From positions 1-35,968 of the IMG/VR virus record IMGVR_UViG_3300025671_000210: DNA of 35,968 nt. One strand, given 5' to 3'. The notes under the pieces are model-generated. The model was not told the origin of the DNA. It made no database searches and saw only the letters and a list, made by a program, of their open reading frames with translations. This DNA comes from a virus. Shown here in pieces: positions 7,821 through 16,150 of the stretch. Made by a program: the position numbers and the translations under genes. Each line of letters opens with the position of its first letter. Positions within the stretch are counted from its first letter, which is position 1.

Positions 7821-8211
7821 ATTTCTTTGAATTACTTATATTAAAATATCCCACCTCCTTATCTACGAACTGGCGCTGATTGAAGTGGGATGTCTTTGGC
7901 ATACCTCTGGTTTCCCATTGAGGCTGAGGTAGTGAAGCGAGATTAAAAGCGAATATACCTTCGGGAGTTTGACAAATGTATACTGGTATTGTAAGGTACT
8001 TTTGCGCTCTCATAAGGAGCTTGTCGTACTTGTACTTCTCTATCAGTAGTTCGTCGTAGTGCTTGTTTCTACACTTAAGTTCTATATCACATTCATACTT
8101 AATAGAGTAGCAATCGTAGTGCGAGAACTCGTCACCGGACCATTCAAGGTCTTGTATGTAGTTAGACTTTAGGTGATTGAATAACTCTTTTTCATTCTTC
8201 TTCCAACTCAT
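7813..8211 (-). CDS. PD-(D/E)XK nuclease-like protein
   Basis: The 132-residue protein has a compact restriction-endonuclease-like core. Helical N-terminus (KKNEKELFNHLKSNY) precedes GDEFSHYDCYSIKYECDIELKCR, where Asp33 or Asp42 with Glu44-Leu-Lys46 make a D...ExK site, followed by LIEKYKYDKLLMRAQ and a beta strand, IPVYICQTPEG. This order (helix, D, ExK, helix, strand) fits a small phage PD-(D/E)XK enzyme. It lies beside the resolvase gene. Substrate unknown; it could process branched DNA or degrade host DNA. Confidence 0.65.
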   Translation of the reverse strand: MSWKKNEKELFNHLKSNYIQDLEWSGDEFSHYDCYSIKYECDIELKCRNKHYDELLIEKYKYDKLLMRAQKYLTIPVYICQTPEGIFAFNLASLPQPQWETRGMPKTSHFNQRQFVDKEVGYFNISNSKKYE

Positions 8212-8470
8212 TCTCTTGGTGTATAGCGATCTTCAAGAGGATAAGGTATCCTATCAAGTCCTGCACAGTATCTTCAGTGGCGTCGGTAATACCTCGGCTC
8301 TTGATACGCATAAGCTTATCATCGATCCGGGCACATAGGCTTTCAATGGCGTTACCTCTCGAGAAGATGCCTACGGGGTTAAGAGCCGAGTCCCCGTAAG
8401 CAGCGTTCTTCTCTAAGAGTAGATTAGTTACCTCTTGAGAGGTTTTTATAATCAATTCTTTTGTGTTCAT
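8192..8470 (-). CDS. DUF1599-like / nucleotide-modification-associated small protein
   Basis: The 92-residue all-helical protein carries LLLEKNAAYGDSALNPVGIF, SLCARIDDKLMRIKSRG and DTVQDLIGYLILLKIA. This order (NxxYG, R.DDK..R, E.D...DL..Y) is the pattern of a common phage family labelled DUF1599 or nucleotide-modification-associated domain, reminiscent of all-alpha nucleotide pyrophosphatases. A role in nucleotide pool or DNA modification is possible but unproven. It overlaps the downstream nuclease-like gene by 20 bases. Confidence 0.7.
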   Translation of the reverse strand: MNTKELIIKTSQEVTNLLLEKNAAYGDSALNPVGIFSRGNAIESLCARIDDKLMRIKSRGITDATEDTVQDLIGYLILLKIAIHQENELEEE

Positions 8471-8488
8471 ATAGTAAATATAATGAAA

Positions 8489-8758
8489 TTAATCAAGTAA
8501 TCCGACCTCAAATTTATAAACTTTTCTACGGCCATCATTTTCAATGACCATACGCCCGTTCGTTGGGTTAAAGAATATATACCGCTCAGATATTCCAGTA
8601 TAGTCCGTTATGTCAACTTTGTAGTCTCTGCCCTTGATCTTGATGATGTTGTAATCTACGACCTCAACATCGTCTACAAGGTTGAACTTTATGTAGGCGC
8701 GAATCATCTCGCACCAACTCTTTCTATAGGCTTCTGCCCAACTTCTTTCTGCTTCCAT
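8489..8758 (-). CDS. Hypothetical protein upstream of the DUF1599-like gene
   Basis: The 89-residue protein starts MEAERSWAEAYRKSWCEMIRA and continues into a beta-rich part (VVDYNIIKIKGRDYKVDITD, RYIFFNPTNGRMVIEND). Its ATG overlaps the helicase stop by one base, so it is probably co-translated with it. No known motif is seen. Placement between helicase and nucleotide-related genes suggests a replication accessory. Confidence 0.65.
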   Translation of the reverse strand: MEAERSWAEAYRKSWCEMIRAYIKFNLVDDVEVVDYNIIKIKGRDYKVDITDYTGISERYIFFNPTNGRMVIENDGRRKVYKFEVGLLD

Positions 8759-10577: not shown

Positions 10578-10786
10578 CACATCATTATTAATCTTAACCT
10601 ACGTTGGTACTTTCGGATCAACAAGGCAGAGTTTGTTAATTGATTCTGTAAGTCACTGGTCCAACCAAACCTACTGGCGTGAAGGGAAAGGTTTACATTG
10701 TCCAACATAAGCATCTCCAAATACTTCTCTACCTCACGTATGTGGCGTTTCTTTCTGTTGTAAGATTTAATCGTACTCAATACCAT
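10577..10786 (-). CDS. Small basic helical protein
   Basis: The 69-residue protein MVLSTIKSYNRKKRHIREVE... is helical and basic, ending RKYQRRLRLIMM. It overlaps the upstream gene by 20 bases and the downstream ATG by one. No known family is recognised. The basic helices could bind nucleic acid. Confidence 0.55.
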   Translation of the reverse strand: MVLSTIKSYNRKKRHIREVEKYLEMLMLDNVNLSLHASRFGWTSDLQNQLTNSALLIRKYQRRLRLIMM

Positions 10787-10940
10787 ATTCTGTTAAGTCT
10801 CTTTCGCATAGATGAACAATGCGGTTGTACAATTCTGATTTAACCTTTGTCTTTTTAGCATTAGCTATTGCGTAACTGCGTATACTGCTAATTACCCTTT
10901 TGCTTCCGCTTGTTCTTTTGGGTTGATAGTTTGTTTTCAT
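10767..10940 (-). CDS. Small basic protein
   Basis: Starting at ATG 10940 gives 57 residues, MKTNYQPKRTSGSKRVISSI..., strongly basic in the first half and acidic at the end (CERDLTEYGIEYD). A longer read from 10970 would absorb the short leader ORF region and is less likely. It is preceded by a nine-codon ORF that begins behind a leader repeat. The family is not recognised. Confidence 0.55.
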   Translation of the reverse strand: MKTNYQPKRTSGSKRVISSIRSYAIANAKKTKVKSELYNRIVHLCERDLTEYGIEYD

Positions 10941-10948
10941 AAGCAAAT

Positions 10949-10978
10949 TTATTTGCGGTGAGGAGTGCAACGACTCAT
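10949..10978 (-). other. Nine-codon leader ORF (MSRCTPHRK)
   Basis: An ATG placed exactly behind leader-repeat copy 8 opens a nine-codon frame ending eight bases before the next start at 10940. It may be a regulatory leader peptide or the remains of a deleted cassette. Confidence 0.35.
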
Positions 10979-10996
10979 CTCTCTTTGGTGTTATTG
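10979..10996 (-). repeat. Start-associated leader repeat, copy 8 (partial)
   Basis: Leftward AACACCAAAGAGAG directly before ATG 10978. It keeps the 3' half of the consensus GAAACCTTTAACACCAAAGA but has lost the 5' half. Confidence 0.7.
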
Positions 10997-11034
10997 TTGA
11001 ACTTTATGTTATATAATAAGTGTTAGCACACATA

Positions 11035-11340
11035 CTAAAAATCCTCAATAGGTGTACTATTAACATAGTTAAATATCTTTGGGCTATCTGCTTTTTCGTT
11101 AGCAAAGTGAGTTGCTCTTGCAGCACACTTGTCTCTTTGAACTTTAAGTAACCTATTTACTTCTTTTTCTGTGAAATACTTCATTGGTGTTTTATCGGTG
11201 GGTACTTCAATAATCTCTACTCCGCATCTATCTGCATTATCCCATATCATAGAATCATCGCAGTTAAGGATGTCAAGAAGGTGTGCTGCTTCTTCTTGTG
11301 TAGTCTCTTTCGTGTTATAAATGATTAGTGTTCTTTTCAT
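11035..11340 (-). CDS. Hypothetical protein, first-type cassette
   Basis: The 101-residue protein MKRTLIIYNTKETTQEEAAH... begins with a beta strand and an acidic helix (LLDILNCDDSMIWDNADRCG), then KYFTEKEVNRLLKVQRDKCAARA. The C-terminal half looks like a small helical unit. Its start carries a diverged leader repeat. No known family is recognised. It may act early in infection like the other cassettes. Confidence 0.65.
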   Translation of the reverse strand: MKRTLIIYNTKETTQEEAAHLLDILNCDDSMIWDNADRCGVEIIEVPTDKTPMKYFTEKEVNRLLKVQRDKCAARATHFANEKADSPKIFNYVNSTPIEDF

Positions 11341-11372
11341 TTTCTCTTTATGGTTAATAGGGGAGGTTTTAC
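11341..11372 (-). repeat. Start-associated leader repeat, copy 7 (diverged)
   Basis: Leftward AAAACCTCCCC...AACCATAAAGAGAAA directly before ATG 11340. It shares AAACCT and AAAGAGA with the other copies but has an insertion in the middle. Confidence 0.5.
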
Positions 11373-11388
11373 ACTCCCCTTGTTAATA

Positions 11389-11892
11389 CTATGCTTCTTG
11401 TTCGTTTAACTCTGCGATACACTTGTCAAGATAATCTTGACTTGTTGATGGTCTACCGAACTTTAATTCAGCAAACAATTCTTGTAGCGTGTGTTCCGCA
11501 GGATTTGTTAATGGGTTCTTGTGTTCCATTCCTTTTGTTGTGTTAACCTCTACAACCCCATCCTTTGGACCTCTATTCTCAATAAACCCTTTTGAGTTTT
11601 CATAATGTGTTTCATTTCCGTATGAATCATATTCTTTCCTACACCAATCTCCATTTGAGTTTTCCCAGTAGATTTCCCTTCCATTCTTATCCTTAATTTC
11701 AAATGGAAACTCTTTGATGTTGAGTTGTTGTGCGATTGTCTTTTTCATTTTATTATTTGTTTTTAAGGTTTCTAATTTCTCAAGCATATTTTCTGCATAT
11801 AAGATACAGATGTTGTAAGCGTCTTTCTCCGCTCCTAACGCTCTGTCTCTGTTGTAAGACATTTTTTTAATCAACTCTTTTAATGGTGTCAT
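11389..11892 (-). CDS. Two-part cassette protein (ELI-helix module joined to WENSNGDW repeat module)
   Basis: The 167-residue frame looks like two neighbouring cassettes read as one. Residues 1-48 (MTPLKELIKKMSYNRDRALG...MLEKLE) resemble the product of the next gene upstream (MKTPIQELI...MLEKEE). Residue 49 is a Met opening MKKTIAQQLNIKEFPFEIKD, followed by two tandem units of the type YWENSNGDW..EYD..GNE (about residues 74-105), a repeat common in phage and Bacteroidota proteins. The junction codons are a diverged copy of the leader repeat, in frame and without a stop. Either a fused protein is made or the internal ATG at 11748 is also used. Its start overlaps the upstream stop by four bases. 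Function unknown. Confidence 0.65.
   Translation of the reverse strand: MTPLKELIKKMSYNRDRALGAEKDAYNICILYAENMLEKLETLKTNNKMKKTIAQQLNIKEFPFEIKDKNGREIYWENSNGDWCRKEYDSYGNETHYENSKGFIENRGPKDGVVEVNTTKGMEHKNPLTNPAEHTLQELFAELKFGRPSTSQDYLDKCIAELNEQEA
11749..11772 (-). repeat. Start-associated leader repeat, copy 6 (inside the fused frame)
   Basis: Leftward GAAACCTTAAAAACAAATAA then the internal ATG at 11748. It matches the consensus in GAAACCTT and its AACAAA core but has no stop codon in the reading frame. Confidence 0.6.
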
Positions 11893-12173
11893 CTCTCTTT
11901 GGTGTTAAAGGTTTCGTTGTAGAAGTGTTCTAATATCTCACTGATAGTAACCTCTACTCCATTTGCATCTATAAAGCAATATCCACGAAGGCTTATGTCA
12001 AAGTCTGTTGAATAACGCTTTAATATAAAGTTCAAGAGTAGTCCCATTGTGTACTCCTCCTTCTCAAGCATTGATTTCATAAGTGATATAGCAAAGTCTA
12101 CATCTACCTTACTATCAATAGGAGAACGCATTTCTTCAAATGTTTCAATTAACTCTTGTATCGGTGTTTTCAT
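11889..12173 (-). CDS. ELI-helix cassette protein with ETFNTKE tail
   Basis: The 94-residue protein MKTPIQELIETFEEMRSPID... has a helical N-terminal half with a MLEKEE stretch, as in a common group of small Bacteroidota-phage proteins, and then a beta part (GYCFIDANGVEVTISEILEH). It ends ETFNTKER, encoded by leader-repeat copy 1 of the next gene. Starts and stops overlap neighbours by four bases (ATGA). Function unknown; likely an early accessory protein. Confidence 0.65.
   Translation of the reverse strand: MKTPIQELIETFEEMRSPIDSKVDVDFAISLMKSMLEKEEYTMGLLLNFILKRYSTDFDISLRGYCFIDANGVEVTISEILEHFYNETFNTKER
11893..11915 (-). repeat. Start-associated leader repeat, copy 1
   Basis: Leftward GAAACCTTTAACACCAAAGA then GAG and ATG 11892. 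It codes for the ETFNTKE end of the upstream gene in the same stretch. Confidence 0.8.
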
Positions 12174-12400
12174 TTCTCTTTGGTGTTAAAGGTTTCTTTA
12201 TAGTATTGCTTAAATGATTTTTGTGTGCGGAAATCGTTATCTCCAAAATCTGCATCTCTGCTATCATCCCACACTTTCTCCATTTGCCTATTCTCTTCTT
12301 GTATCCAAAAATCCTTATTTGGAAATTCCCAGTGTGGTAGACGCTCTTGATATAATCTCTCAACAGCATTAATTAATTGTGTTACAATTGTCTCTTTCAT
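12170..12400 (-). CDS. Cassette protein with ETFNTKEK tail
   Basis: The 76-residue acidic and aromatic protein MKETIVTQLINAVERLYQER... has Trp-rich segments (LPHWEFPNKDFWIQEENRQM) and ends YKETFNTKEK, the tail encoded by the leader repeat of the downstream gene. ATGA overlap with the downstream start. No enzyme motif or membrane span is visible and the family is not recognised. Confidence 0.6.
   Translation of the reverse strand: MKETIVTQLINAVERLYQERLPHWEFPNKDFWIQEENRQMEKVWDDSRDADFGDNDFRTQKSFKQYYKETFNTKEK
12174..12196 (-). repeat. Start-associated leader repeat, copy 2
   Basis: Leftward GAAACCTTTAACACCAAAGA then GAA and ATG 12173. It is identical to copy 1 over the first 22 bases. Confidence 0.8.
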
Positions 12401-12422
12401 CTTGCTTTTGTTTTAAAGGTTA
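12401..12422 (-). repeat. Start-associated leader repeat, copy 3 (diverged)
   Basis: Leftward TAACCTTTAAAACAAAAGCA then AG and ATG 12400. The 5' end contains the TAA stop of the upstream gene, so this copy does not code for the shared tail. Confidence 0.65.
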
Positions 12423-12599
12423 TACTTCTGGGGTGAAGTGTATAGTGAGGTTCACAAGTTGACCATCTTCTTGGCGAGTCCAACTAATTGCCTCTACGCT
12501 AACTAAATTAATTCCCATATGGTTTGGGATTACCTCTATTGGTAATGGAGATTCTGCTCCATTAAGGATTTCTTGAATTGTTTTGATTTCTGTTTTCAT
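12420..12599 (-). CDS. Small beta-rich cassette protein
   Basis: This 59-residue gene, MKTEIKTIQEILNGAESPLP..., ends NLTIHFTPEV. It fits exactly between leader repeats 4 and 3, and its length falls just under common gene-calling limits. The phrase SVEAISWTRQEDGQLVNLTI suggests a small beta sheet. It lacks the ETFNTKE tail because its stop falls at the start of the diverged repeat. Function unknown. Confidence 0.65.
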   Translation of the reverse strand: MKTEIKTIQEILNGAESPLPIEVIPNHMGINLVSVEAISWTRQEDGQLVNLTIHFTPEV

Positions 12600-12622
12600 C
12601 TCTATTTGGTGTTAAAGGTTTC
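12600..12622 (-). repeat. Start-associated leader repeat, copy 4
   Basis: Leftward GAAACCTTTAACACCAAATA then GAG and ATG 12599. One base differs from copy 1, which turns the GAG codon into a TAG stop for the upstream gene. Confidence 0.8.
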
Positions 12623-12802
12623 TACCACTGGAGCATAACTTTGTACTACTTCCCCTTTCAGCCAAACTGAACCATTAAACTCTTGATGCATTACTTTGGG
12701 TTTCCAAAACTGCCACCAGCGAGGTGAAGATTCAACTACAAAGGTTGTTTCTAATCTGCTCCATCCGTTTAAAGATTCTGTTACTTTGAATTGTGTTTTC
12801 AT
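12602..12802 (-). CDS. Trp-rich cassette protein with ETFNTK tail
   Basis: The 66-residue protein MKTQFKVTESLNGWSRLETT... carries SSPRWWQFWKPKVMH and GSVWLKGEVVQSY, likely a short beta domain, and ends VVETFNTK. The stop is TAG inside leader repeat 4. It is the first gene of the cassette train; upstream lies a non-coding leader with a long palindrome. Function unknown. Confidence 0.6.
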   Translation of the reverse strand: MKTQFKVTESLNGWSRLETTFVVESSPRWWQFWKPKVMHQEFNGSVWLKGEVVQSYAPVVETFNTK

Positions 12803-12825
12803 TTCTCTTATTTTTTAAAGGTTTC
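12803..12825 (-). repeat. Start-associated leader repeat, copy 5
   Basis: Leftward GAAACCTTTAAAAAATAAGA then GAA and ATG 12802. It sits before the first cassette without any upstream gene, which shows that the repeat is kept independent of coding a tail. Confidence 0.75.
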
Positions 12826-12891
12826 TAATTTGCGCCCATTATTATTGGTGTGCGCCTATTTTTATATGCTTAAAGTATCATTAATGTTACA

Positions 12892-13283: not shown

Positions 13284-13424
13284 TTATAAATCCTTTTCTA
13301 TGTTCTGGCGTTCTACATACCTGCGCCACATATTAGCAGCCCAAGCCCTTCTCTGGATCTTATTAGGATACACCTTCTTTAACCTCGCATTAGCAATGCG
13401 TAGGAATTGATTCATCTTATTCAT
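13284..13424 (-). CDS. Small basic protein
   Basis: The 46-residue ORF MNKMNQFLRIANARLKKVYP... is rich in Arg, Lys and Trp (NKIQRRAWAANMWRRYVERQ) and ends in a short acidic stretch. It starts 13 bases after the tRNA-like element in the transcription direction. The strongly basic helix suggests nucleic-acid binding. Unrecognised, but the amino-acid pattern is not random. Confidence 0.5.
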   Translation of the reverse strand: MNKMNQFLRIANARLKKVYPNKIQRRAWAANMWRRYVERQNIEKDL

Positions 13425-13436
13425 AGTAATTAATTT

Positions 13437-13504
13437 TGGAGGGGAGAGGGGAATCGAACCCCTCTATTAACCTACTCCGCAGTAAAGCTATTTGCCTTTT
13501 CCCC
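13437..13504 (-). ncRNA. Shortened tRNA-like element
   Basis: Leftward the element has a perfect tRNA T-arm (AGGGG, loop TTCGATT, CCCCT). It is enclosed by an acceptor-like pairing of 5' GGGGA with 3' TCCCC and followed by T and CCA. A short D-like arm (GGC-AAATA-GCT) and a stem TACT-GCGG-AGTA (extendable by two T-G pairs) stand where the D and anticodon arms belong. The anticodon loop has four to six bases instead of seven and the whole is about 66 bases, so it is unlikely to decode normally. It could be a decayed tRNA, a tRNA mimic or a processing signal between the SSB-like gene and the small genes downstream. Confidence 0.55.
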
Positions 13505-13512
13505 TTTGACGT

Positions 13513-13792: not shown

Positions 13793-14218
13793 TTATTCAA
13801 GAATCAATTTTGAGAGGTGATTCACCCTCTGTTCTAAACGCGCAACTCTCGAGTTCATATTGTCTACCGCTTGCGATAGATCGCCATTCTCCTCCGAGGT
13901 GTGCTTAAGGATGCCTTTGAGTTTGTTATAGTTAAAACTATACATACCATCGGCCATTCGGTTTTCGTGGGAATGGATGTACTCATACGCCATACGCTGA
14001 CTAACACCCAAAACTTTACCGACTTCCGTACTTGCGTACTCTTGTTCCGATAACACCCGTGCGATCAGCGCACGAGCGGTAACTACCTTTCTGTTCTTGC
14101 TATTCTCTACGATCTTATCTACTGGGACATCCATAAGATTACAGGCAGTCTCAATAATAAATCTCTCAAGGGGACTATAGTTCTCCCACAATAGCATAGT
14201 ACGGTCTAAACTCTCCAT
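13793..14218 (-). CDS. DnaA domain IV-like DNA-binding protein with coiled-coil tail (copy 2)
   Basis: The 141-residue protein carries a helix-turn-helix block similar to the DNA-binding domain IV of DnaA. It consists of VDKIVENSKNRKVVTARALI, ARVLSEQEYASTEVGKVLGV and QRMAYEYIHSHENRM, with the HH.TV..A-like third helix replaced by SQRMAYEYIHS. A C-terminal coiled coil follows (LSQAVDNMNSRVARLEQRVNHL). There is no AAA+ domain, so it is not an initiator by itself; it may bind the phage origin or operators. A relative with the same layout is encoded at 15611-16150. The start overlaps the exonuclease gene by 44 bases; ATG 14197 is an alternative. Confidence 0.7.
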   Translation of the reverse strand: MESLDRTMLLWENYSPLERFIIETACNLMDVPVDKIVENSKNRKVVTARALIARVLSEQEYASTEVGKVLGVSQRMAYEYIHSHENRMADGMYSFNYNKLKGILKHTSEENGDLSQAVDNMNSRVARLEQRVNHLSKLILE

Positions 14219-14930
14219 TTAAAAATAATTTTTCATATAAGTTAATTGACTTGTGCAGTTCCATCGCTCCGAAGTTTAGGAAATTCTCCGATGCTTTGTA
14301 GATGCCTACTTCATAAGGGAACTCTTTCTCTATAACGAGGAAGTAAAACTCATCGCAATTGAAGATCTCAGAGTATAGGTACGCTTGTTGAGCGTACATC
14401 CACTTGGCGTTTCTGGACCATTCCTCCAGCGGTTTAGCAGTTGTCTTTAGATCAACAAGGTATCTACGTCCGCCCTCTTCAACAATTGAATCGGCCTTAC
14501 CTTTTAGTTTAACAACCTCCCCAGATTCTAACGACCATTCCATTACACCGGGAATCTCGGGTTGGAAGTCAAATCCCATAAGGTCAGTTACCTCACTTAC
14601 CTTTTGTAGTTTATCGTACATCCCTTGGACGCAATCGTAGTCTTTGGTAGGTAATACTAACTTACCAGTGTTCTCCGCTTTAAACGCCTTGTAGTCGTTT
14701 CCTCTACGCGTTCCGTTCCACTTCACAGAGATATCTTTTCCTTCGAGGAACATAGAGTGTAGGGCTTGGCCTACGTCGAAGTACGACGCACTTGGCCAAG
14801 ACCATTTACCTTGTCTCCATAAGTGAAACTTTGTAGGAGACTTAGTCATCAACTTCAGCGAACTATTGGACAGGTAGGACCTATCTGCGTAGTACGCCTC
14901 GTCGTCATTAAAGCGAGTAACATCATCCAT
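14175..14930 (-). CDS. PD-(D/E)XK exonuclease (RecE/YqaJ-type)
   Basis: The 251-residue protein begins with YLSNSSLKLMTKSPTKFHLW and GQALHSMFLEG, then has the nuclease core VKLKGKADSIVEE...RYLVDLKTT, where the GKAD aspartate and D-L-K make the PD-(D/E)XK site. Next comes WMYAQQAYLYSEIFNC, with the Gln-Tyr of the QxxxY-type motif. This order is that of phage exonucleases paired with an annealing protein; it would resect double-stranded ends to give 3' tails. The ATG overlaps the annealing protein stop by one base, so the two are translated together. Confidence 0.85.
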   Translation of the reverse strand: MDDVTRFNDDEAYYADRSYLSNSSLKLMTKSPTKFHLWRQGKWSWPSASYFDVGQALHSMFLEGKDISVKWNGTRRGNDYKAFKAENTGKLVLPTKDYDCVQGMYDKLQKVSEVTDLMGFDFQPEIPGVMEWSLESGEVVKLKGKADSIVEEGGRRYLVDLKTTAKPLEEWSRNAKWMYAQQAYLYSEIFNCDEFYFLVIEKEFPYEVGIYKASENFLNFGAMELHKSINLYEKLFLNGEFRPYYAIVGEL

Positions 14931-15472
14931 TATGCAAGGATTTCTTTATTTTGTTCAGCGGTCGTGTTGTATCCAGCTAACGCCTTCTCTACTGCTTCCT
15001 TCTTACCAGAGGCAACTGCGGCTTTCATCTTTTCAATGATCTCCGGAGTAAGCTCTTTAAGAGCTACTTTAGTTTGCTTCTTAGTTGGTGCAGTAGTCGT
15101 ACTTCCTGTAGAGTTCTGCTTTGCGATGGCGATCGCAACCTCGTTAGAACTTGCAATCGAAGTATCAATACCAATACCGAGAGCAGCCAATGCACGGCCC
15201 CAAGCACTTGTCTCACAATTCTCCACATAGCTTGTCTTGTTAATGTAACTACTGGACTTATCCTCTTGAGCGAAACCAGTTGCTTTAACCATTCCGTTCT
15301 CATCTGTAATGAGAGCTTTTATCACACAACTCCCTTCATCAAGGTGGTGGATCTCCGAAGATAGTGACCATCCCTTGTAGTCTCCGCTCTCGCGAAAGTA
15401 CTTGATTCTTTCATTGACTTCAACATACTCTTTACCTTTGATGTTTGTAGTCTTAAACTTGTAGCGACTCAT
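14930..15472 (-). CDS. Single-strand annealing protein (Erf/Rad52-like)
   Basis: The 180-residue protein has a folded N-terminal half with WSLSSEIHHLDEGSCVIKA (35-53), VKATGFAQE and the signature SYVENCETSAWGRALAALGI (81-100), followed by a SNEVAIA stretch. This ENCETSA.GRALA..G.G pattern is shared by the Erf-like single-strand annealing proteins of phages. The C-terminal third is low-complexity and charged (KKQTKVALKELTPEIIEKMK). With the adjacent exonuclease it forms a two-component recombination system for annealing homologous single strands. A structured RNA candidate lies in its leader. Confidence 0.8.
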   Translation of the reverse strand: MSRYKFKTTNIKGKEYVEVNERIKYFRESGDYKGWSLSSEIHHLDEGSCVIKALITDENGMVKATGFAQEDKSSSYINKTSYVENCETSAWGRALAALGIGIDTSIASSNEVAIAIAKQNSTGSTTTAPTKKQTKVALKELTPEIIEKMKAAVASGKKEAVEKALAGYNTTAEQNKEILA

Positions 15473-15610: not shown

Positions 15611-16150
15611 CTAAAAAGCAATACCAGCTATCTTTTTATTTAACATATTTAAACTCATCTGCTTCTCATAGTTGTCTGCCTTGAGTTGATCTATCTCCTT
15701 CTGTAGTTCTTTTACAACTTCTTCCTGTAGTTTAAATTCCATCAAGACCTTTCTATTGCGACGACTCATCTTCATTAATCGATCACGCATTTGATTGTTC
15801 TCATCCTTTAATCCGTTGTACTCAGAGAAGTCTATATCAAACATAAACATCTCAGCAAACTGATGGCTCATAATCTCGTAAGCCTTGTAATATACTTTTG
15901 AGAAACGAAGATTTACTTCGTGATTCTTATTGGCCCATACCACCATTGCGTGATGCTTCCCCAGAATTTTAGCTATACTCGTTATGCTGAGTGAGGAGTA
16001 CTTATTTGCAGCAACCATAAATGCGTTGCGGTACATTACATTTCTTTGGACTCTGTTGTCATCAACGGCCCATTGTTTTTTAACGTCCTTCCAGTAGTGT
16101 TCCAACATTACCTTTTGACCCATTGCGCTTAATACCTGTTCTTTTTCCAT
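15611..16150 (-). CDS. DnaA domain IV-like DNA-binding protein with long coiled coil (copy 1)
   Basis: In this 179-residue protein the segment RNVMYRNAFMVAANKYSSLS, ITSIAKILGKHHAMVVWANK, NHEVNLRFSKVYYKAYEIM closely follows the DnaA domain IV pattern: the basic loop, the helix with S...IA..LGK.HA.V and the final H...N...D..Y..A. The KHHAMVVWA helix corresponds to the DnaA signature that reads the DnaA box. A coiled coil of about 70 residues follows (LKDENNQMRDRLMKM to LKADNYEKQMSLNML), probably for dimerisation. No ATPase domain is present. It is the first gene after the palindrome region at 16.17-16.27 kb and may regulate that region or mark the origin. Confidence 0.75.
   Translation of the reverse strand: MEKEQVLSAMGQKVMLEHYWKDVKKQWAVDDNRVQRNVMYRNAFMVAANKYSSLSITSIAKILGKHHAMVVWANKNHEVNLRFSKVYYKAYEIMSHQFAEMFMFDIDFSEYNGLKDENNQMRDRLMKMSRRNRKVLMEFKLQEEVVKELQKEIDQLKADNYEKQMSLNMLNKKIAGIAF

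Follow-up and report, generated by a model that had tools for sequence, protein, structure and literature searches.

A 25-nucleotide start-site leader heads small-gene cassettes and marks their exchange points in uncultured phages

The leader array in the window

The stretch of DNA analyzed here (35,968 nucleotides [nt], positions 1 to 35,968; referred to below as the window) is the 36-kb IMG/VR virus record IMGVR_UViG_3300025671_000210. On its minus strand, between 10.9 and 12.9 kb, lies an array of small genes that follow directly after a conserved leader. In a preliminary description of the window, eight copies of this leader were reported to abut start codons, and it was proposed that the repeat is a common translation or regulation signal that also lets cassettes be swapped by homologous recombination. 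The leader repeat is real and reaches far beyond the window, and cassette swapping at it is strongly supported on both sibling and unrelated phage contigs.

The conserved unit comprises 25 nt, AACCTTTAACACCAAAGAGA[A/G]ATGA, and because it includes the ATGA it also contains the overlapping TGA stop that many upstream genes use. Copies were scored by comparing the 21 nt before the ATG with AACCTTTAACACCAAAGAGAA (Table 1). All eight ATGs listed previously exist on the minus strand, and six of the copies have five or fewer mismatches; these six are the only matches at that threshold on either strand of the window, and every one is followed directly by ATG. The copies at 11340 and 11748 are too drifted to count alone, the sole support for the former being a gapped resemblance (TTAACCATAAAGAGAAAATGA). 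Near identity, previously ascribed to the first, second, and fourth copies in the listed order, instead belongs to those at 11892, 12173, and 12599, and the ATG at 10978 opens a 9-codon micro-open reading frame (micro-ORF), not the next long gene. A 20-nt probe at three or fewer mismatches gave 3 matches in the window versus 0.01 expected in shuffles, and no reverse-complement (antisense) copies were found there.

Table 1. Leader copies, genes, and other features of the window (asterisk, stop codon; mismatches are ungapped, in 21 nt)
Feature	Coordinates	Strand	Remarks
Leader copy AACCTTTAAAAAATAAGAGAA-ATGA	12799..12823	-	First in transcription order; ATG at 12802; 4 mismatches
Leader copy AACCTTTAACACCAAATAGAG-ATGA	12596..12620	-	ATG at 12599; 2 mismatches
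Leader copy AACCTTTAAAACAAAAGCAAG-ATGA	12397..12421	-	ATG at 12400; 5 mismatches
Leader copy AACCTTTAACACCAAAGAGAA-ATGA	12170..12194	-	Exact consensus; ATG at 12173; 0 mismatches
Leader copy AACCTTTAACACCAAAGAGAG-ATGA	11889..11913	-	ATG at 11892; 1 mismatch (A/G position)
Decayed leader AACCTTAAAAACAAATAATAAA-ATGA	11745..11772	-	Inside fused ORF; ATG at 11748; 12 mismatches; resemblance only with gaps
Doubtful, drifted leader TTAACCATAAAGAGAAA-ATGA	11337..11361	-	ATG at 11340; 12 mismatches
Leader copy TAACACCAAAGAGAG-ATGA, 3' part only	10975..10993	-	ATG at 10978; 5 mismatches; siblings rejoin here
Cassette gene, 66 amino acids (aa), MKTQFKVTES...VVETFNTK*	12602..12802	-	In leader-bounded G014 block
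Cassette gene, 59 aa	12420..12599	-
Cassette gene, 76 aa, grouped with MKTPMQEL family	12170..12400	-	End ...YYKETFNTKEK* read from next leader
Cassette gene, 94 aa, MKTPIQEL family	11889..12173	-	End ...FYNETFNTKER*; 99% leader-bounded block in sibling L009
ORF of 167 aa, in-frame fusion of two cassettes (MTPLKEL... + MKKTIAQQL...)	11389..11892	-	Internal start at 11748; both parts in G014
Cassette gene, 101 aa	11035..11340	-	Partly in G014 block
Micro-ORF MSRCTPHRK*, 9 codons, second portable start module	10949..10978	-	17 contexts, upstream of different genes
Hairpin GCAAATAAATTTGC over micro-ORF stop codon	10943..10956	-	Paired changes among relatives
Gene after micro-ORF (MKTNYQPK...)	10767..10940	-	Leader-headed in several other phages
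Noncoding module before first leader, paired TAGGCGCA/TGGGCGCA repeats	12826..12876	-	Recurs before leaders heading many different genes
Exonuclease VIII/PDDEXK-type exonuclease	14175..14930	-	phrog_412, E 1.3e-35; Pfam DUF3799, E 4.7e-20
Probable single-strand annealing protein (ERF/Rad52-like)	14930..15472	-	AlphaFold2 mean pLDDT 72; H-E-E-E-H core

Cassette exchange at the leader

Across the contigs compared, 297 distinct leader copies head 121 gene families. As many as 12 different families were found after one and the same upstream gene end, and 44 left contexts were counted for the MKTPMQEL family. Where the same left gene is followed by different right genes, identity stays at about 0.9 up to position +24, the A of ATGA, and then falls to about 0.27; where the same right gene follows different left genes, identity is about 0.3 through position -2 and at least 0.83 from position 0, positions 2 and 9 being variable exceptions. 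Inside the leader, the first 5 nt track the left gene and the A/G at position 20 tracks the right gene, while the middle tracks neither. The statistic for this linkage of leader variants lay above all 500 shuffles, which ignore relatedness, and the variants suggest crossovers inside the leader.

Alignment of siblings, which the preliminary description had put forward as a check for cassette gain and loss exactly at the repeats, revealed whole-cassette differences with joints inside leaders. Sibling L009 carries the window block from 12194 to 11889 and then resumes at 10993, and in L013 position 12799 is followed by 10993; both joints fall within the leader, and both siblings differ from the window by whole cassettes. 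L009, L010, L013, L014, L018, and L020 all rejoin the window exactly at 10993. Record G014, in which no TerL or helicase related to those of the window was detectable, carries the stretch from 12825 to 12596 at 91% nucleotide identity with its edges exactly at leaders, as well as 11787 to 11392 plus 11341 to 11191 at 96%. Comparison of these sequences thus places exchange at the leaders.

Homologous blocks that reach a leader stop there in 90% of cases, whereas the figure for the other starts of genes in these zones is 48%, and 32% and 31% of block ends lie at leader edges, against 1.9% expected. That non-leader starts break 48% of blocks indicates that gene boundaries generally tolerate breaks, as would be anticipated if the leader were purely an expression signal, a site for a phage or host factor akin to the start-associated sequences (SAS) of Cluster K mycobacteriophages, and if recombination were a by-product of repeats and of selection against intragenic joints. 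We regard this explanation as unlikely, because the break fraction at leaders is so much higher, because the variant linkage points to crossovers inside the leader, and because a few copies lie at gene ends without a start, flanking noncoding modules.

Chimeric assembly at a short repeat could also mimic shuffling, since these are metagenome contigs whose ends (in many of L006 to L198) are concentrated within about 150 nt of leaders, as if assemblies break at population-variable cassettes. Contig ends showed no sharp peak at the distances from leaders that assembler k-mers would produce. When leaders closer than 300 nt to a contig end were set aside, the pattern was intact, with two or more right families in 34 of 35 left groups. 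Furthermore, 31 internal shuffled joints have drifted leaders (two or more mismatches), 14 joints are present in two or more contigs, and the separate contig L008 repeats the window's gene order over 3.8 kb at 100%. Assembly chimeras are therefore a highly improbable source of the pattern.

Distribution among phages and hosts

No close cultured relative of the window was found by megablast in INPHARED, and the MKTPMQEL family was absent from that database as well. Siblings were collected as 80 loci found with the window's helicase-like protein, without use of the motif. In these motif-blind loci, the ATG stands at one fixed distance in 77 of 88 copies, the next base is A in 77 of 77, and conservation jumps at the first leader base and drops after the ATGA. 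The exact 23-mer occurs in at least 119 IMG/VR stretches, while shuffled motifs in a fuzzy search gave a handful of matches. L086 to L198 were fetched by a pattern ending in ATGA; the start association is read from the motif-blind set only. Among 27 longer records, those of the window lineage carry TerL at 73 to 96% identity, and many leader-bearing records gave no TerL match (e.g., G010, G012, G014, G018 to G020, and G022 to G029). The motif search on related phages that had been recommended thus finds the leader both in motif-blind siblings and in phages for which no TerL related to that of the window was detectable.

The nearest helicase relatives belong mostly to Flavobacterium and Riemerella phages, at about 27% identity, and from these remote relatives the host is probably a member of the Flavobacteriia. 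If the leader were an ordinary one common to all genes of that host group, it should abound in host genomes. In about 695 Bacteroidota genomes, however, matches occurred at the control rate: with at most one mismatch, 3 of 300 family genomes and 1 of 395 phylum genomes were matched, like the reversed control. Six exact matches were found in GTDB genomes, of which three are start associated (L199 to L201, contigs of metagenome-assembled genomes taken for misbinned phage DNA) and three are not. Use of the leader by the host was consequently rejected, and we consider this the least probable of the explanations weighed here.

The sole start-associated match in a cultured phage was found in Flavobacterium phage FPSV-D35 (L205, 1497 to 1521; TTTTTAACACCAAATAAAAATGA, 22 of 24 nt, E 0.4). 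The sequence is single copy in the stretch examined, and the match is doubtful; it may have arisen by chance or be a distant echo of the leader.

When five leader-bearing lineages were compared for a gene encoding a common trans-acting factor, only the MKTPMQEL family was present in all five, and no dedicated leader-binding protein was found in that comparison. A DnaA-C-like protein (15611 to 16150) was present in four of the five. This protein and that encoded at 13793 to 14218 both have weak similarity to the DnaA C-terminal helix-turn-helix, and relatives of the former were seen in several unrelated leader-bearing phages.

Role in translation

At 143 of the 297 copies, the reading frame of the upstream gene runs on through the leader (...ETFNTKE[K/R]*) to the TGA inside ATGA, where the gene stops; at another 65, the gene stops at the TAA inside CTTTAA. 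The leader start region has no Shine-Dalgarno sequence, and its predicted folding is weak (mean, -1.8 kcal/mol, versus -3.5 kcal/mol for other starts in the same phages). Initiation in Flavobacterium johnsoniae needs low structure and A at -3, -6, -12, and -13 (PMC6847099); the leader matches at A-6 and A-13 and usually has C at -12. Position and low structure make a role in initiation and coupling likely. The signal function claimed earlier is thus favored by the fixed distance to the ATG, the ATGA stop-start overlap, and the low structure, which are arguments from position from which we still infer the function itself. The fixed distance, the invariant ATGA, the low structure, and the location of most copies at starts would also suit a leader with expression as its only role.

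Recombination genes and a model for exchange

The exonuclease gene and the annealing protein candidate adjoin the leader array. The named BFVD matches of the candidate are annealing, ERF, Rad52, or RecT proteins save one exonuclease-8 (best named E value, 3e-8). Neither a tyrosine nor a serine recombinase (Phage_integrase PF00589 or Resolvase) was detected in 12 leader-bearing records, in a search in which PF00589 controls were positive and other recombinase families were not included. The earlier suggestion that the phage's own annealing protein helps the exchange agrees with this gene content.

Arrays of small-ORF cassettes with a repeated joint are reminiscent of integrons, and clusters of attC sites lacking integron integrases (CALINs) have been described in phages, one of them a Polaribacter phage (PMC9892861). 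Site-specific recombination at an integron-like attC or another recombinase site is nonetheless very unlikely here. The leader has 25 nt with a stem of at most 4 bp (-0.5 kcal/mol) and is not a long attC hairpin; the 12 records gave no PF00589 integrase, which CALINs may lack in any case, and no Resolvase; and exchange occurs also at an unrelated coding tract, discussed below.

We propose instead that the 25-nt leader is probably a portable start element, which serves a common pool of gene cassettes as their standard joint and doubles as a homologous crossover tract. Small genes of the early region would thereby all have one type of initiation site, unstructured, A-rich, and free of a Shine-Dalgarno sequence. 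In about half of the cases the upstream gene reads through the leader in frame and stops at the TGA overlapping the ATG, so that translation could be coupled. With a leader at both cassette ends, any pair of leaders, whether in one phage or in two, could cross over to add, drop, or replace whole cassettes, and each such crossover would stay in register and restore a working stop/start joint. From gene content and variant patterns, we infer that the crossover is homologous via the 25-nt tract and probably aided by the phage exonuclease and annealing protein, not by a dedicated site-specific recombinase. Exchange of this kind may presumably confer a selective advantage.

Several observations weigh against this proposal. 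Exchange is not limited to the leader but occurs also at a second, coding tract, GAGAAAGAGAAAGA, inside the MKTPMQEL genes, as would suit homologous exchange in general and not a single dedicated site. The contigs are redundant and related, so that p-values overstate independence. The leader has G at -3, where F. johnsoniae favors A (PMC6847099). Among 165 cassette-gene homologs, 50 start without the leader, which is thus not needed for translation of those genes; relatives that keep the genes without the repeat, named in the preliminary description as the finding that would tell against it, therefore exist in part, and the leader is not obligatory. Finally, searches of PDB, Pfam, and NCBIfam with the annealing candidate gave no support, and its probable identity comes from a mid-confidence model and viral structure neighbors only.

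Neighboring genes and noncoding modules

None of six cassette proteins scanned against Pfam and PHROGs gave a match. The start at 11748 lies in frame within the ORF from 11389 to 11892, which indicates that two cassettes are fused in the window phage; the second part (MKTIAQQL...) stands alone in L143 behind a leader with three or fewer mismatches in 19. A three-part fused ORF, with the leaders between the parts lost, was observed in L209 (G014) at 8000 to 8653 and consists of an MKTPMQEL 5' half, MKKTIAQQL, and a portion of the MKRTLIIY genes. Genes of the MKTPMQEL family are themselves mosaic, their 5' and 3' halves being swapped at GAGAAAGAGAAAGA (MLEKEKE) in L010, L014, L026, L038, L042, L086, L139, L174, and others.

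The micro-ORF at the downstream end of the array belongs to a second start module with the order leader, micro-ORF MSR[CKQ][TA]P[HQ]RK*, hairpin, and ATG of quite different genes, which was found in the window (10943 to 10978) and in L008, L009, L024, L025, L118, L143, L165, L187, and L197. The paired changes in its hairpin are GCAAA/TTTGC, GTAAA/TTTAC, and GATAAAT/ATTTATC, and the module looks like a translational-coupling leader peptide. At the other end, the noncoding module before the first leader is a possible promoter or operator. Similar pre-leader modules (left clusters 0, 4, 5, 8, and 9) contain paired direct repeats or small stem-loops (TAGGCGCA, GTAAGG..CCTTAC, GATGG..CCATC, and CACAAAGTGTAAA); they also recombine, are sometimes sandwiched by two leaders, and are likewise possible promoters or operators.

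Rfam gave nothing near the leaders, and no tRNA was found in a search of the window. A tRNA-like T-arm/acceptor sequence, not called by ARAGORN, is present at 13442 to 13507, just upstream of the gene at 13284 to 13424.

Relation to known systems and implications

The SAS of Cluster K are 13 bp long (GGGATAGGAGCCC) with the Shine-Dalgarno core AGGAG, occur in one phage cluster, and stand mostly before genes with gaps of >50 bp, about half of the sites having linked 17-bp inverted repeats termed ESAS (Pope 2011, PMC3203893). Like them, the leader is a short asymmetric repeat a few nucleotides before a start codon, mostly ATG, in one orientation; both occur before many different gene families in the nonstructural region and are nearly absent from host genomes. 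In contrast to the SAS, the leader has 25 nt, of which the ATGA is a part, and it often overlaps the gene upstream; it is found across phage lineages, and cassettes are exchanged at it. Its consensus does not match the 13-bp SAS consensus and lacks AGGAG. In a comparison with ESAS, modules with stem-loops or direct repeats, varied and of differing sequence, were seen before some leaders. The SAS are nearest to the leader in position and likely role, and the likeness drawn in the preliminary description holds by analogy and not by membership: position is shared, whereas sequence, Shine-Dalgarno core, spacing, and host range differ. No earlier description of the leader was found in the literature covered, most subscription papers lying outside that coverage.

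The promoter early stem-loops (PeSL) of T4-type phages, reportedly described by Arbiol in 2010, are mobile regulatory cassettes of a promoter and stem-loop between genes. They resemble the leader as a repeated regulatory element among small hyperplastic genes that is tied to modular shuffling, but the leader, which lacks a stem-loop, lies directly against the start codon or overlaps it. Short repeats before phage genes are also found in halovirus HF2, where the intergenic repeats bear promoters, are 29 to 58 bp long, and are conserved in position within a genus, the abstract mentioning no cassette exchange (PMC8707807).

Conserved boundary (linker) sequences have been proposed to explain phage mosaicism and are unidentifiable at most borders (PMC3029335). 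As in that model, a short common sequence stands at module borders, where it may permit homologous exchange (the variant linkage fits crossovers inside the leader), and the mosaic joints coincide with it; unlike the usual boundary sequences, a single sequence serves no fewer than 121 gene families and forms their start site as well. Of the described systems compared, the conserved-boundary model fits best, the boundary in this case being the start codon itself.

Hundreds of joints share one sequence, which is the gene start itself, and the edges of exchange are resolved to the single nucleotide; the linker model of mosaicism thereby becomes directly testable. With the leader as a tag, accessory genes can be sought in uncultured phages, and for hosts that initiate independently of Shine-Dalgarno sequences it is a candidate translation element. 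The genes that it heads may form a ready list of candidate early anti-host or counter-defense functions. The chances are about even that these phages, though unrelated, have in common a recombinase-free form of cassette exchange, in which one stop/start adaptor combines the role of attC with that of a ribosome entry site. If so, any cassette of the pool could be inserted and translated in the same context, and the leader would be a natural counterpart of standardized bicistronic expression parts.

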